From Gillisia lutea (GTDB lineage Bacteria > Bacteroidota > Bacteroidia > Flavobacteriales > Flavobacteriaceae): a stretch of 64,000 bases of DNA. Under the pieces are notes generated by a model that worked only from the letters and a program-made list of their open reading frames with translations, was not told the DNA's origin and made no database searches. The stretch is taken from the NCBI RefSeq assembly GCF_021568705.1, contig NZ_JAKGTH010000011.1:62001-126000 (forward strand), in the 5' to 3' direction. Made by a program: the position numbers and the translations under genes. Positions 40,639 through 44,075 of this stretch are shown in pieces (the first letter of the stretch is position 1; the number at the start of each line of letters is the position of its first letter).

Positions 40639-41909
40639 TGAGCTATCTGGTAAAGAAAGAAGTATATACACCGCAGCTACAAGCTGTAGAGCAAGCAGCA
40701 GCGAGAATTTCAAAGGTAGTTGTAAAAACACCTTTAGCACCTTCATTTACCTATAGTAAGAAGTTTGAAGCTAATGTGCTTTTAAAAAGAGAAGATCTTC
40801 AACAGGTAAGATCTTATAAAATTAGAGGTGCGTATAATAAAATATCAAGTTTATCGCAAAGTCAGCTCGATAAAGGGGTTATTTGCGCCAGTGCCGGAAA
40901 TCATGCCCAGGGAGTGGCATTTGCGTGTAATAATCTTAAGGTTAAAGGCGTGATCTATATGCCTATAACTACTCCCAAGCAAAAGGTAGAGCAAACCAAT
41001 ATGTTTGGGGGGGAGTGGGTAAAAGTTGTCCTTAAAGGAGACACTTTTGACGACTCATATAAGAATGCCATTAAATATGGTGATGAACATGGACTCGTAT
41101 TTATTCATCCTTTTGATGATGAAAAAGTAATTGAAGGACAGGCGACCATCGCTTTAGAAATATTAGAGCAAACCAATGTTCCTATAGACTATATCTTTGC
41201 TCCCCTTGGTGGTGGTGGGCTATTAGCAGGATTATCGTCTATTTTCAAAAATCTTTCACCTAACACTAAAATAATAGGAATTGAGCCGGAAGGAGCGCCC
41301 TCTATGAGTCTATCACTTAAAGAAGGTAAACTGGTAGAGCTTGCCGAAATAGACAGATTTGTAGATGGTGCTGCAGTTCAAAAGGTGGGACAGCGCAATT
41401 TTGATATTTGTATCAATTCACTGGATGAAATGATCACTGTTCCGGAAGGAAAGATATGCCAGACCATTTTAGATCTTTATAATCAAGATGCTATAGTGGT
41501 GGAACCCGCAGGTGCCATGTCTATTAGCGCTCTGGATATGTTTTCTGAAGAGATAAAAGGAAAGAATGTTGTATGCATTATTAGTGGAAGCAATAATGAT
41601 ATTACCCGTACTGCCGAGATAAAAGAAAAGGCTTTGCTCTACGCGGGGCTTAAACATTATTTTATTGTGCGTTTTCCTCAAAGAGCCGGGGCATTAAAGC
41701 AATTTGTGGCAAAAGTACTGGGACCAGACGATGATATTACCCATTTTGAATATTCTAAAAAACATCATCGGGAAAATGGCCCGGCCGTAGTAGGTATTGA
41801 ATTGAAGGATCCAAACGATTTCGAACCTTTGGTACAACGAATGAAAGATCAAAAGTTCTTTGGGCAATATTTGAATAACAGTCCAGATTTATTTCAATTT
41901 TTGATCTAA
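40638..41909 (+). CDS. ilvA: Threonine dehydratase (biosynthetic)
   Basis: PLP enzyme that deaminates threonine to 2-oxobutyrate, the entry to isoleucine. 423 residues: catalytic domain with the PLP lysine in VRSYKIRGAYNK (near 55-65) and the phosphate-binding GGGGL loop; a C-terminal ACT-like regulatory domain (about 335-420, starting YFIVRFPQRAGAL). A single ACT-like unit fits the short IlvA form. It is the last gene of the ilv operon; its stop is 131 bp before the arginine leader region's TTG/ATG options begin at 42018. Confidence 0.97.
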   Translation: MSYLVKKEVYTPQLQAVEQAAARISKVVVKTPLAPSFTYSKKFEANVLLKREDLQQVRSYKIRGAYNKISSLSQSQLDKGVICASAGNHAQGVAFACNNLKVKGVIYMPITTPKQKVEQTNMFGGEWVKVVLKGDTFDDSYKNAIKYGDEHGLVFIHPFDDEKVIEGQATIALEILEQTNVPIDYIFAPLGGGGLLAGLSSIFKNLSPNTKIIGIEPEGAPSMSLSLKEGKLVELAEIDRFVDGAAVQKVGQRNFDICINSLDEMITVPEGKICQTILDLYNQDAIVVEPAGAMSISALDMFSEEIKGKNVVCIISGSNNDITRTAEIKEKALLYAGLKHYFIVRFPQRAGALKQFVAKVLGPDDDITHFEYSKKHHRENGPAVVGIELKDPNDFEPLVQRMKDQKFFGQYLNNSPDLFQFLI

Positions 41910-41914
41910 ACTGT

Positions 41915-41944
41915 TTTGTTGGTAAAAAAAATAATGTACATTTA
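41915..41944 (+). promoter_or_regulatory. Candidate promoter of the arginine operon
   Basis: TTTG at 41915-41918 and TACATTTA at 41937-41944 (TAnnTTTG with one mismatch), spaced 18 bp, resemble the Bacteroidota TTTG/TAnnTTTG promoter. It would give a leader of about 290 nt before the GNAT gene, long enough for the small frame at 42018-42158. Confidence 0.4.
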
Positions 41945-42240
41945 TCCCGTGATTTCAATGAAAGAAATAATATTACCCATATTGCGCTTCCGGCTACGCT
42001 AGTAGTGACGGTAAGCAATGCATTTTTTTCTTTTTTTAATAGTTTTTGAATTTCACATCTTGAAAAATTTTATCCCAGTATATTTAGCGAATGATTTCAG
42101 AATAACTTCTGAACGTTTCCCCTTACGCCGTTTTCCGCGCCGCCTTGTGCGTGTATAATTTTATGGAACTTAGGTGAGTCCGGTTCTTTTCCCCAGATAA
42201 CAATACAAAATATTTTTTTTCATACTAAATTTCTTAGCAG
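41945..42240 (+). other. Long leader region before the arginine operon
   Basis: About 300 bp with no ordinary gene. It contains the arginine-rich small frame and an unusually GC-rich, C-over-G patch at about 42108-42152 in AT-rich surroundings. After the frame, GGAAC (42164-42168) can pair with GTTCT near 42183 to form a weak stem followed by a pyrimidine run. A strong terminator is not apparent. Confidence 0.5.
42018..42158 (+). CDS. Candidate arginine leader peptide
   Basis: An open frame from ATG 42018 (46 codons) or TTG 42060 (32 codons) to TAA 42156-42158. The last 14 codons read RFPLRRFPRRLVRV with six arginines, all CGT or CGC, in a genome that often uses AGA; one AGA precedes them. 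The frame ends 82 bp before the first gene of the arginine operon. Such a run of codons for the operon's product is the hallmark of a ribosome-stalling leader peptide. Translation and start codon are unproven, and a following terminator is weak, so Rho-dependent or translational control may apply. Confidence 0.5.
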   Translation: MHFFLFLIVFEFHILKNFIPVYLANDFRITSERFPLRRFPRRLVRV

Positions 42241-42870
42241 ATGAAAATACTCATTGCTAACAAGGCTCATGCAAAATATGCAGAGACCATTTGTGACACT
42301 ATAGCTGAATCGGCAAAGGTTCGGGGTACGGGAATTGCCCGCAGAACTCCTGAATATATCATCACCAAGATGGAGAATGGCAATGCCATTATCGCCTTGG
42401 ATGGAGATAATTTTGCGGGATTTTGCTATATAGAAGTTTGGGGGCACGACAAATTCGTAGCCAACTCAGGTTTAATTGTTAGCCCCGATTATAGAAATCA
42501 AGGTCTTGCAAAAGATATCAAAAAAGCCATTTTTGAACATTCCCAAAATAAATATCCCGGTGCAAAGATCTTTGGAATTACCACAGGTTTGGCGGTAATG
42601 AAAATTAACTACGAGTTAGGATATCAACCCGTTACTTTTTCAGAATTAACTGATGATGAGAGCTTTTGGAAAGGTTGTCAAACTTGCAAGAATTATGATA
42701 TTCTTACCCGTACCGAACGTAAGATGTGCTTATGCACAGGCATGCTATACGATCCGAATAAGAAGAAAGAAGAAAAGCCAAGGCACGAGAGTTTTAATGA
42801 AAAAACCTATAGAAGATTAAAAAGCATTAAACAGACCTTGTTCTACAAAAAAGATAAAGAATCAAATTGA
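42241..42870 (+). CDS. GNAT acyltransferase, probable first enzyme of arginine synthesis
   Basis: A 209-residue GNAT protein with the acyl-CoA loop RNQGLA (85-90) and the adjacent helix AKDIKKAIF. After the fold comes a cysteine cluster CxxC...CxC (Cys146, 149, 163, 165) and a basic tail. It is the first gene of the arginine operon, which otherwise lacks argA or argJ, so it is the natural candidate for acylation of glutamate. Because the transcarbamylase looks N-succinyl or N-acetyl type, the donor could be succinyl-CoA or acetyl-CoA. The cysteines suggest a metal site, unusual for GNAT enzymes. Specific function is inference from context. Confidence 0.8.
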   Translation: MKILIANKAHAKYAETICDTIAESAKVRGTGIARRTPEYIITKMENGNAIIALDGDNFAGFCYIEVWGHDKFVANSGLIVSPDYRNQGLAKDIKKAIFEHSQNKYPGAKIFGITTGLAVMKINYELGYQPVTFSELTDDESFWKGCQTCKNYDILTRTERKMCLCTGMLYDPNKKKEEKPRHESFNEKTYRRLKSIKQTLFYKKDKESN

Positions 42871-42887
42871 TCAAAAAATATACAGGA

Positions 42888-44075
42888 ATGAAAAAAATAG
42901 TAATAGCATATAGCGGAGGATTAGATACTTCTTACTGCGCAAAATATTTATCACATGAGAAAGATACTGAAGTTCATGCGGTAAGTGTAAATACAGGCGG
43001 ATTTTCAGATGAAGAAATAAAGGAAATAGGCTATAAGGCAACTAAGATGGGTGCTAAAACCTATAAGAATATTAACGCCATTTCTACATTTTATGATAAG
43101 GTGGTAAAATATCTGATTTTTGGAAATGTGCTTAAAAATAATACCTATCCCTTATCGGTAAGTGCCGAACGTATTATTCAGGCAATAGAGATTGTGAATT
43201 ATGCCAAAGAAATTGGTGCTGAATATATAGCACATGGAAGCACGGGTGCAGGGAACGACCAGGTGAGATTTGATATGATCTTTCAAACTCTGGCGCCAGG
43301 AATAAAGATTATTACTCCAATTAGAGATAAACAACTAACCAGGCAGGAAGAGATCGAATATCTTAAAAGTCATGGTGTGGATATGAACTGGGAAAAGGCC
43401 AAATATTCTGTAAATAAAGGCCTGTGGGGAACAAGTGTAGGAGGAGCCGAAACGCTAACATCGCATAAATCTCTACCGGAATCTGCTTATCCTTCTCAAT
43501 TATCAGAAAATGAACCTAAACATATAAGTCTTGGTTTTAATAAGGGAGAATTAACAGCCATTAATGGAGAGGAGAATACTCCTGAGGCTATCATTGAAAT
43601 GTTAGAACAGATCGCTTCAAAATATGCGATAGGAAGAGATATACATGTAGGGGATACTATTATCGGAATAAAAGGGAGAGTTGGTTTTGAAGCTGCTGCA
43701 GCTACCATCATCATTAAATCTCATCATTTATTAGAGAAGCATACCTTGAGCAAATGGCAACTTCAGCATAAAGATTACATCGCCAACTGGTATGGAACTC
43801 ATTTACATGAAGGCCAATATCTTGACCCCGTAATGCGTGATTTTGAAGCTTTCTTGCAAAGCTCGCAGGAGCAGGTGACAGGGGCGGTGTTTATTACATT
43901 GCACCCATATAGATTTGCTTTAGATGGAATTGAATCTGAATTCGATCTTATGAATAATGGTTTTGGAAAATATGGCGAAGAGAATACGGCTTGGACTGCA
44001 GATGATGCCAAAGGTTTTATTAAGATACTCTCTAACTCTGGGAAGATTTATCAACATGTAAAAAATAAAGGATGA
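42888..44075 (+). CDS. argG: Argininosuccinate synthase
   Basis: Joins citrulline and aspartate using ATP. I start at ATG 42888 (MKKIVIAYSGGLDTS), the usual beginning of ArgG; a TTG at 42867 would add seven residues and overlap the previous stop by 3 bp. The PP-loop YSGGLDTS is at 8-15. The synthase continues with STGAGNDQVRFD and PTVRDKQLTR-like ITPIRDKQLTRQEE. About 395 residues, normal. It overlaps argC by 4 bp. Confidence 0.96.
   Translation: MKKIVIAYSGGLDTSYCAKYLSHEKDTEVHAVSVNTGGFSDEEIKEIGYKATKMGAKTYKNINAISTFYDKVVKYLIFGNVLKNNTYPLSVSAERIIQAIEIVNYAKEIGAEYIAHGSTGAGNDQVRFDMIFQTLAPGIKIITPIRDKQLTRQEEIEYLKSHGVDMNWEKAKYSVNKGLWGTSVGGAETLTSHKSLPESAYPSQLSENEPKHISLGFNKGELTAINGEENTPEAIIEMLEQIASKYAIGRDIHVGDTIIGIKGRVGFEAAAATIIIKSHHLLEKHTLSKWQLQHKDYIANWYGTHLHEGQYLDPVMRDFEAFLQSSQEQVTGAVFITLHPYRFALDGIESEFDLMNNGFGKYGEENTAWTADDAKGFIKILSNSGKIYQHVKNKG

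Follow-up and report, generated by a model that had tools for sequence, protein, structure and literature searches.

The arginine locus of Gillisia lutea (Flavobacteriaceae) raises the question of how arginine synthesis could be controlled in bacteria in which the domains of the arginine repressor ArgR are not found. We examined a 64,000-nucleotide (nt) stretch of its 3.18 Mb genome, hereafter the window (assembly GCF_021568705.1, contig NZ_JAKGTH010000011.1, positions 62,001 to 126,000 of the forward strand), and focused on the 331-nt gap (41910-42240) between the end of ilvA at 41909 and the start, at 42241, of a gene for a GNAT acetyltransferase. GNAT is followed by argG, argC, a gene that we take to be proC, argD, argF, argB, argE and argH, and these genes presumably form one operon. 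Comparison with relatives strongly supports the presence of an arginine-codon leader, a short open reading frame (ORF), in this gap, and we consider it probable that the gap acts as a ribosome-dependent arginine attenuator, which would sense charged tRNA-Arg and in which an RNA hairpin, P2, would be masked directly by the stalled ribosome.

Neither of the two ArgR families, PF02863 and PF01316, was detected in any of 31 genomes of the order, that of G. lutea included; they were detected in 8 and 9 of 14 positive controls, respectively, among them Bacteroides ihuae. This absence speaks against membership of the locus in an ArgR/AhrC regulon, and another form of arginine control is therefore to be expected. 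With the leader there is a concrete and testable proposal for arginine control without ArgR in a large group of marine bacteria.

An arginine-codon reading frame in front of GNAT-argG

The initial annotation had placed a leader frame of 46 amino acids, starting with ATG, at 42018-42158. This frame is present and ends with RFPLRRFPRRLVRV, and its last 14 codons contain the six arginine codons that had been reported, CGT CGC CGT CGC CGC CGT. The proposed start did not hold up: the five nearest congeners (loci L010-L014) have no in-frame ATG and share with the window a TTG 32 codons before the stop, which makes TTG 42060 the more likely start, so that the leader of the window is probably 42060-42158 (MKNFIPVYLANDFRITSERFPLRRFPRRLVRV). 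The ATG at 42018 falls within the 3' arm of a hairpin predicted at 41983-42022, behind which comes a T-run. The element extends past the range first proposed, to the hairpin P3 at 42186. The single weak stem that had been described turned out to be two short hairpins, P2 and P3. The features of the gap are the following.

41983-42040, + strand: hairpin and T-run (fold -14.8 kcal/mol), probable terminator of the upstream ilv operon, where transcription would end; contains ATG 42018
42040-42048, + strand: TAGTTTTTG, a tentative -7 promoter box whose spacer is 3 nt long (2 nt in the consensus TAnnTTTG), in the window a guess from the sequence
42060-42158, + strand: leader ORF, start TTG, 32 codons with 7 arginine codons (6 of them CGT or CGC in the last 14), from the comparison of relatives
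42096-42113, + strand: hairpin P1 inside the leader ORF, TTCAGAA-TAAC-TTCTGAA, from the fold z over relatives
42114-42152, + strand: arginine control codons CGT42114, CGC42126, CGT42129, CGC42138, CGC42141 and CGT42150, from the sequence
42136-42151, + strand: hairpin P2 over the last arginine codons, CGCGC-CGCCTT-GTGCG, flagged as terminator-like, with covariation in relatives
42165-42186, + strand: hairpin P3, GGAACTTAGGTGAGTCCGGTTC, with the near-invariant loop AGGTGAGTCC and covariation in relatives

The leader evolves as a coding sequence in relatives

A search of 80 genomes yielded GNAT in 49, that of G. lutea included, and loci were fetched for the best 30 of these 49. Together with the best 80 of 544 confirmed GNAT loci of named genomes, they provided 111 upstream regions from Flavobacteriaceae, which include duplicate genomes and the window's own locus twice; once identical ORFs are discarded there are 101, referred to as distinct leaders. 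Each of the 111 loci has the P3 anchor; the loop motif is present in 110, and in the remaining one the loop is replaced. The leader frame was picked as the one with the most arginine codons among its last 12 that ends 8-40 nt before the P3 loop, a procedure that favours arginine, and where several in-frame starts were present the start codon was chosen by hand. A leader ORF ending just before P3 was present in all 111 loci, so that the frame is kept in relatives. The arginine run is kept as well, with RR within the last 8 codons in 97 of the 101 distinct leaders. In these Flavobacteriaceae loci the initial annotation thus withstood the comparison that could have refuted it. The start codons chosen were TTG in 61, ATG in 48 and GTG in 2 of the 111 loci. 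The distinct leaders comprise 20-47 codons with 2-8 arginines each, and their N-termini appear similar across genera by eye (M/L-K/N-x-x-x-H/S/N-I). As a check on the arginine-favouring pick we used the stop offset, which is -26 to -30 in 81 and -16 to -18 in 19 of the 101 leaders; this clustering, together with the coding-like substitutions described below, supports the frames chosen.

In frame, arginine accounts for 484 of 3050 codons (15.9%). The two other forward frames have 3.3% and 4.1%, and a set of 13 neighbouring genes has 2.6%. The reverse frames of the leaders yield 9.7%, 16.1% and 3.6%; because CG is palindromic, reverse frames are arginine-high as well, and arginine content alone is weak evidence. 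The codons used differ from those of the surroundings: CGC and CGT make up 413 of the 484 leader arginine codons versus 36 of 122 in the 13 neighbouring genes, where AGA leads with 53. The leaders are thus enriched in codons for the end-product amino acid of the operon, as is characteristic of leader-peptide attenuators.

Substitutions were counted in 31 disjoint pairs of equal-length leaders with 71-98% identity. The last 14 codons carry 60 synonymous and 47 non-synonymous changes, with 34 synonymous changes expected, and none of 500 permutations gave a value as high. An excess is also seen in codons -14 to -6, which lie outside P2 (47 synonymous versus 24 expected; 0 of 500 permutations), and in the last five codons (13 versus 9; 22 of 500), and the leader part before the last 14 codons gives a weak signal (44 versus 34; 19 of 500). 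Judged by these substitutions, the last 14 codons evolve as a coding sequence, also outside the hairpin. A chance ORF in a GC-rich patch, which would fit the unremarkable folding of the window sequence on its own (z -0.12), is hardly credible in light of such coding-type conservation in 101 distinct leaders, and for the window alone only 3 of 3000 dinucleotide shuffles of the gap produced an ORF of 18-50 codons with at least 5 arginines among the last 12 codons. A repeat element was also considered and rejected: within the G. lutea genome the gap has 14 other matches, of which the best has E 0.006, and it is no repeat there.

The ends of the leaders bear on a further explanation, in which the peptide itself would be the sensor. 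In nascent-peptide arrest, of which TnaC and SpeFL are examples, free arginine or ornithine in the exit tunnel would act on an RRRP or RRT peptide and the ribosome would stall at the stop codon. RRP directly precedes the stop in 62 of the 101 leaders and RRT in 15, in agreement with this idea. We nevertheless regard it as very unlikely: 20 of the 101 leaders continue with other residues before they reach a more distal stop (offset -18 to -12 rather than -30 to -26), the number (2-8) and spacing of the arginines vary, and a biosynthetic operon would need the reversed sign of control. The prevailing CGC/CGT spelling also points to the tRNA, though P2 favours G and C as well.

Hairpins P2 and P3 are supported by compensatory changes

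It is the comparison of relatives that reveals the hairpins. In most relatives P2 has the sequence CGCCC-GUAA-GGGUG or CGCAC-GUAA-GUGCG and its loop contains the stop codon; the stop is located at or in the P2 loop in 81 of 101. The P2 of the window has a shifted register, and its stop codon follows 5 nt behind the hairpin. The P3 stem varies by genus (GGAAC/GUUCC, GGAAAU/AUUUCC or GGAGUU/AACUCC), and its loop is AGGUGAGUCC in 87 of the 101 distinct loci, AGGUGUGUCC in 11 and another sequence in 3; the consensus is AGGUGWGUCC, and 98 of the 101 loops are AGGTGAGTCC or AGGTGTGTCC.

When 32 sequences were simply aligned with MAFFT, 97.1% of the P2/P3 cells paired. The covariation score and the double-change cells of this alignment were reached by 0 of 500 shuffles, and the number of double-change pairs by 9 of 500. 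When 79 sequences were fitted to a covariance model, 97.4% of the cells paired and five pairs were changed on both sides (1 of 500 shuffles), with 49 double-change cells (0 of 500), a covariation score that no shuffle reached (0 of 500) and further pair types at a level found in 5 of 500. Across the aligned relatives, P2 and P3 are thus supported by compensatory changes, and with them the leaders possess conserved hairpins around the control codons, another characteristic of attenuators. The mean fold z against shuffles, calculated over 71 thinned loci, was -1.15 for P1, -1.72 for P2 and -1.68 for P3. For P1, z was below -1 in 34 of the 71, and support for this hairpin is weaker than for P2 and P3.

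Given the nearly invariant P3 loop (98 of 101), we asked whether the RNA hairpins alone could be the switch, either as a riboswitch or as an element to which a protein binds via the P3 loop, with the ORF being incidental. This would account neither for the excess of synonymous changes seen outside P2, at codons -14 to -6, nor for arginine-rich ORFs that precede GNAT in other families without the loop (L158, L160 and L166). In our judgement P3 also seems too small for a metabolite-binding core, and we consider hairpins alone highly improbable. In Rfam, the window from 41800 to 42500 gave only one sub-threshold antisense match (16.9 bits versus a gathering score of 86.7), and in 20 loci no family, riboswitches and T-boxes included, was found in the leaders at the gathering score; the one match there, Flavo-1 in L176, lies outside the leader. 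Because the P3 loop contains GUCC, the GUCCY-hairpin (Weinberg 2010) was considered as well.

A P2-P3 model singles out GNAT-argG loci

For the first covariance model, R1, 77 sequences were aligned; a motif filter retained 42, and 32 of these served for training. Locus L042, whose loop is lost, had been left out of the first alignment. R1 finds 79 of the 79 loci given, including the untrained, loop-less L042 at 33.4 bits, and the leader is its only significant match in the G. lutea genome (second match, E 0.83). A further model, R2, was applied with stricter filters to two overlapping sets of genomes, 395 from the phylum and 296 from the order. All 22 strong R2 matches (at least 37 bits, that of G. 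lutea included) lie before GNAT-argG, whereas 0 of 11 weak matches (at most 26 bits) lie near any of 11 arg or ilv query proteins. About four matches are expected by chance at E <= 0.01 over the 395 genomes, and seven of the weak ones were found there. Such a tie to the matching biosynthetic operon is also known from attenuators. In 22 of 22 strong matches the leader is separated from argG by GNAT. With the covariance model and the positions of the arginine codons, leaders can now be annotated and codon-swap tests planned.

Taken together, the conserved frame, the arginine codons, the coding-type substitutions and the link of P2-P3 to GNAT-argG support the ribosome-stalling leader that had been suggested from the window alone.

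Beyond these matches the distribution of the leader is patchier. When 11 genomes lacking GNAT were searched for argG, 10 were without it, and in ten genomes without a model match (nine of genus g57, which we take to be Flavobacterium, and one of g66) argG is present with GNAT adjoining. Loci L176-L182 of genus g57 contain an ORF of the form MNxxSxHITxxSR...TSPEVRM, and where this ORF was scored its last 12 codons hold 1-2 arginines. A different ORF had the best score in L179, and no ORF of the form given was seen in L184 and L185. Leaders without the conserved loop occur in L156, L158, L159, L160 and L166, and no leader was seen in L162, L164 and L165. As far as these sequences go, the arginine run weakens in more distant genomes (g57) or no leader is seen.

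Locus L175 contains, at ~690-815, an arginine-containing short ORF that ends with TRP, has GCCCCTAAGGGGC over its stop codon and is followed by a loop-less hairpin; it lies ~690 nt before argG and gives a weak R2 match (14.6 bits).

Working model of arginine attenuation

Transcription would start just before the leader ORF, as suggested by a -7 box in part of the relatives: 27 of the 101 loci carry an exact TAnnTTTG 6-8 nt upstream of the leader start (shuffles: mean 8.2, maximum 15). The -7 box of F. psychrophilum is described as spanning -12 to -5 (PMC9723704), and the box position would therefore place the transcription start a few nt before the leader in these 27 loci and make the leader ORF nearly leaderless. 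A ribosome would translate the leader and read the CGC/CGT run near its end. If charged tRNA-Arg is scarce, the ribosome would stall on this run and cover the 5' arm of P2, P2 could not form, and the polymerase would continue into GNAT-argG and on to argH. If arginine is plentiful, the ribosome would run on to the stop codon, which lies in or next to P2, and leave the RNA, P2 (with P3) would form, and most transcripts would end early by weak intrinsic or Rho-aided termination. We infer the stalling, the sense of control, the role of P3 and the termination itself. The simplest reading is that the ribosome masks P2 directly and that no trp-type switch is involved.

Several observations weigh against this attenuator. 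T is raised after P2 (5.2 per 10 nt versus backgrounds of 3.9 and 3.5) but the runs are short; the longest T-run is at most 3 in 71 of 101 loci, which makes a poor intrinsic terminator, and 59 of the 101 pass a loose U-tail rule. Six duplex tests over the 71 thinned loci revealed no consistent competing pairing (mean z -0.35 to 0.49). The off state requires release of the ribosome before the polymerase passes, because a ribosome at the stop codon also covers P2, and the attenuator model does not account for the P3 loop. As to the hairpins, further pair types are not above shuffles in the 32-sequence alignment (428 of 500 as high), and in the window's clade (the A2 rows), where P2 is shifted, two of five pairs fail in the model register. 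Among the GNAT loci of the remaining 19 of the 49 genomes, fetched later, 6 match R2 (at least 34 bits) and the other 13 score at most 11.8 bits; an arginine-rich short ORF (p <= 0.05 versus shuffles) is found in 14 of 29 more distant or unmatched GNAT loci; and in four of these 14 (L171, L173, L174 and L183, the first three of which have a model match) the best-scoring ORF is not the aligned leader.

Two variants of the model are less favoured on the basis of these tests: an intrinsic terminator with a clean U-tract, as the T-runs are broken up, and a trp-type switch, as none of the six duplex tests gave a consistent partner competing with P2 or P3. In two of the six tests, strong cases are slightly in excess: for the leader body with the P3 3' arm, 10 loci are below -1.5 and 2 above 1.5, and for the leader body with the P2 3' arm 9 versus 2. 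Within the ORF, the first 18 nt show a tendency towards pairing with the downstream portion (mean z -0.56; of the 71 loci, 14 are below -1.5 and 2 above 1.5).

The main rival is control of translation or mRNA stability, in which the position of the ribosome would set P2 and P3 and thereby expose or hide the GNAT start or an RNase site. The P3 loop is found 60-69 nt before the GNAT ATG in 95 of the 101 loci, and this constant distance suggests a fixed relation to the start codon; the lack of a clean U-tract points in the same direction, as does the report that pausing at two arginine codons of orf34-speF changes decay by RNase G (PMC6386406). However, a stalled ribosome makes no difference to the predicted openness of the GNAT start (unpaired 0.44 in both states), which is mildly against this mechanism, and the stretch between P3 and the ATG shows no pairing beyond shuffles with the P2 3' arm (mean z 0.31) or the P3 loop (mean z 0.49). 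Overall, we judge such control unlikely, and prefer attenuation by masking of P2.

A more specific version of the attenuator can be put forward only tentatively, and we would sooner doubt than defend it as a whole. It would be a compact device in which the control codons are an arm of the decision hairpin, the stop codon usually lies in the loop and no antiterminator is needed, in which the P3 loop AGGUGWGUCC docks a partner in trans, and which stands in for the missing ArgR in Flavobacteriaceae. One candidate partner of the P3 loop, by complementarity, is the 3' tail of 16S rRNA: AGGUGA, present in 87 of 101 P3 loops, is complementary to UCACCU in GGATCACCTCCTTT, which occurs once in the G. 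lutea genome and which we take to be the 16S tail. The near-invariant loop is in any case a conserved RNA motif. As a general signal, AGGTGWGTCC was rejected, with 3 forward and 0 reverse occurrences in the genome versus 3 and 2 for the reversed pattern used as a control. The two extra matches lie one inside a gene and one beside a gene on the other strand, presumably for arginine decarboxylase.

Relation to known leader systems

The trp, his and leu operons are controlled by leader-peptide transcription attenuators. The locus described here resembles them in having a short ORF rich in codons for the end product, close behind an inferred promoter and before a biosynthetic operon, with RNA hairpins in and behind the leader ORF. 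It differs from them in that neither a clean U-tract nor a clear antiterminator of the mutually exclusive kind was found, and in that the control codons lie in an arm of the downstream hairpin, with a second hairpin of near-invariant loop behind it.

Arginine codons in upstream ORFs have been described in two other settings. In Salmonella orf34-speF, consecutive arginine codons of an upstream ORF are reported to sense arginine by ribosome pausing, and a hairpin lies just 3' of the stop codon (PMC6386406). In contrast to the operon studied here, speF encodes an ornithine decarboxylase and no enzyme of arginine synthesis, and the outcome is described as RNase G decay combined with Rho and translation control (PMC6386406). 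In S. aureus rbfL-rbf, arginine codons of a leader peptide are reported to pause ribosomes when arginine is scarce (PMC13009471). Unlike the leaders of this study, rbfL has eight residues and AGA/AGG codons, and it blocks the ribosome-binding site of a biofilm regulator, resulting in translational repression under starvation (PMC13009471).

Within the bacterial family of the window, structured 5' regions have been described in F. psychrophilum, where leader-peptide attenuation was proposed upstream of amino-acid operons and pheA and hisG are among the conserved 5' elements (PMC9723704). We found no mention of argG in that study, whose supplement may list it (PMC9723704). We recognised no leader peptide for arginine biosynthesis in the open-licence PMC literature, a scope that leaves aside subscription journals and supplements and is no proof. 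Ribosomes of these bacteria are reported not to recognise Shine-Dalgarno sequences (PMC9976891). If our model is true, codon-sensing attenuation would also cover arginine biosynthesis, and would do so in bacteria reported to be blind to this signal.

The operon and its neighbourhood

The first two genes of the presumed operon are the following.

42241-42870, + strand: GNAT acetyltransferase, first gene (Pfam PF13508/PF00583)
42888-44075, + strand: argG, second gene, which probably begins at ATG 42888 (TTG 42867 in the ORF list)

The products of argC, argF, argB and argH score above the NCBIfam cut-offs, and the matches of argG, argD and argE lie below theirs. The closest named matches of the window's GNAT protein are from Gillisia (Flavobacteriaceae), with 92-94% identity. 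Because argF scores above the cut-off as an N-acetylornithine carbamoyltransferase, we regard GNAT as a candidate N-acetylglutamate synthase; GNAT itself passes no NCBIfam cut-off, and among solved structures its only match is a distant one, to PA4794-like acetyltransferases. In one congener (G013:C1:4372855-4373473, locus L173) GNAT is apparently broken into two overlapping pieces, one with a TAG, for which a sequencing error is possible; the leader of the same locus gives a strong model match (66.3 bits).

On the ilv side, a leader before ilvD was considered and rejected, as the short ORF is not visibly kept, with the ilvD gene located in 2 of 7 other loci. One congener (L189) has a G+C-richer stretch with repeats, seen by eye, before ilvD, which the window and L187 do not have. 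In L176, a Flavo-1 RNA (RF01705, 77.7 bits) lies at 1365-1444 between argG and argC, on the other strand.
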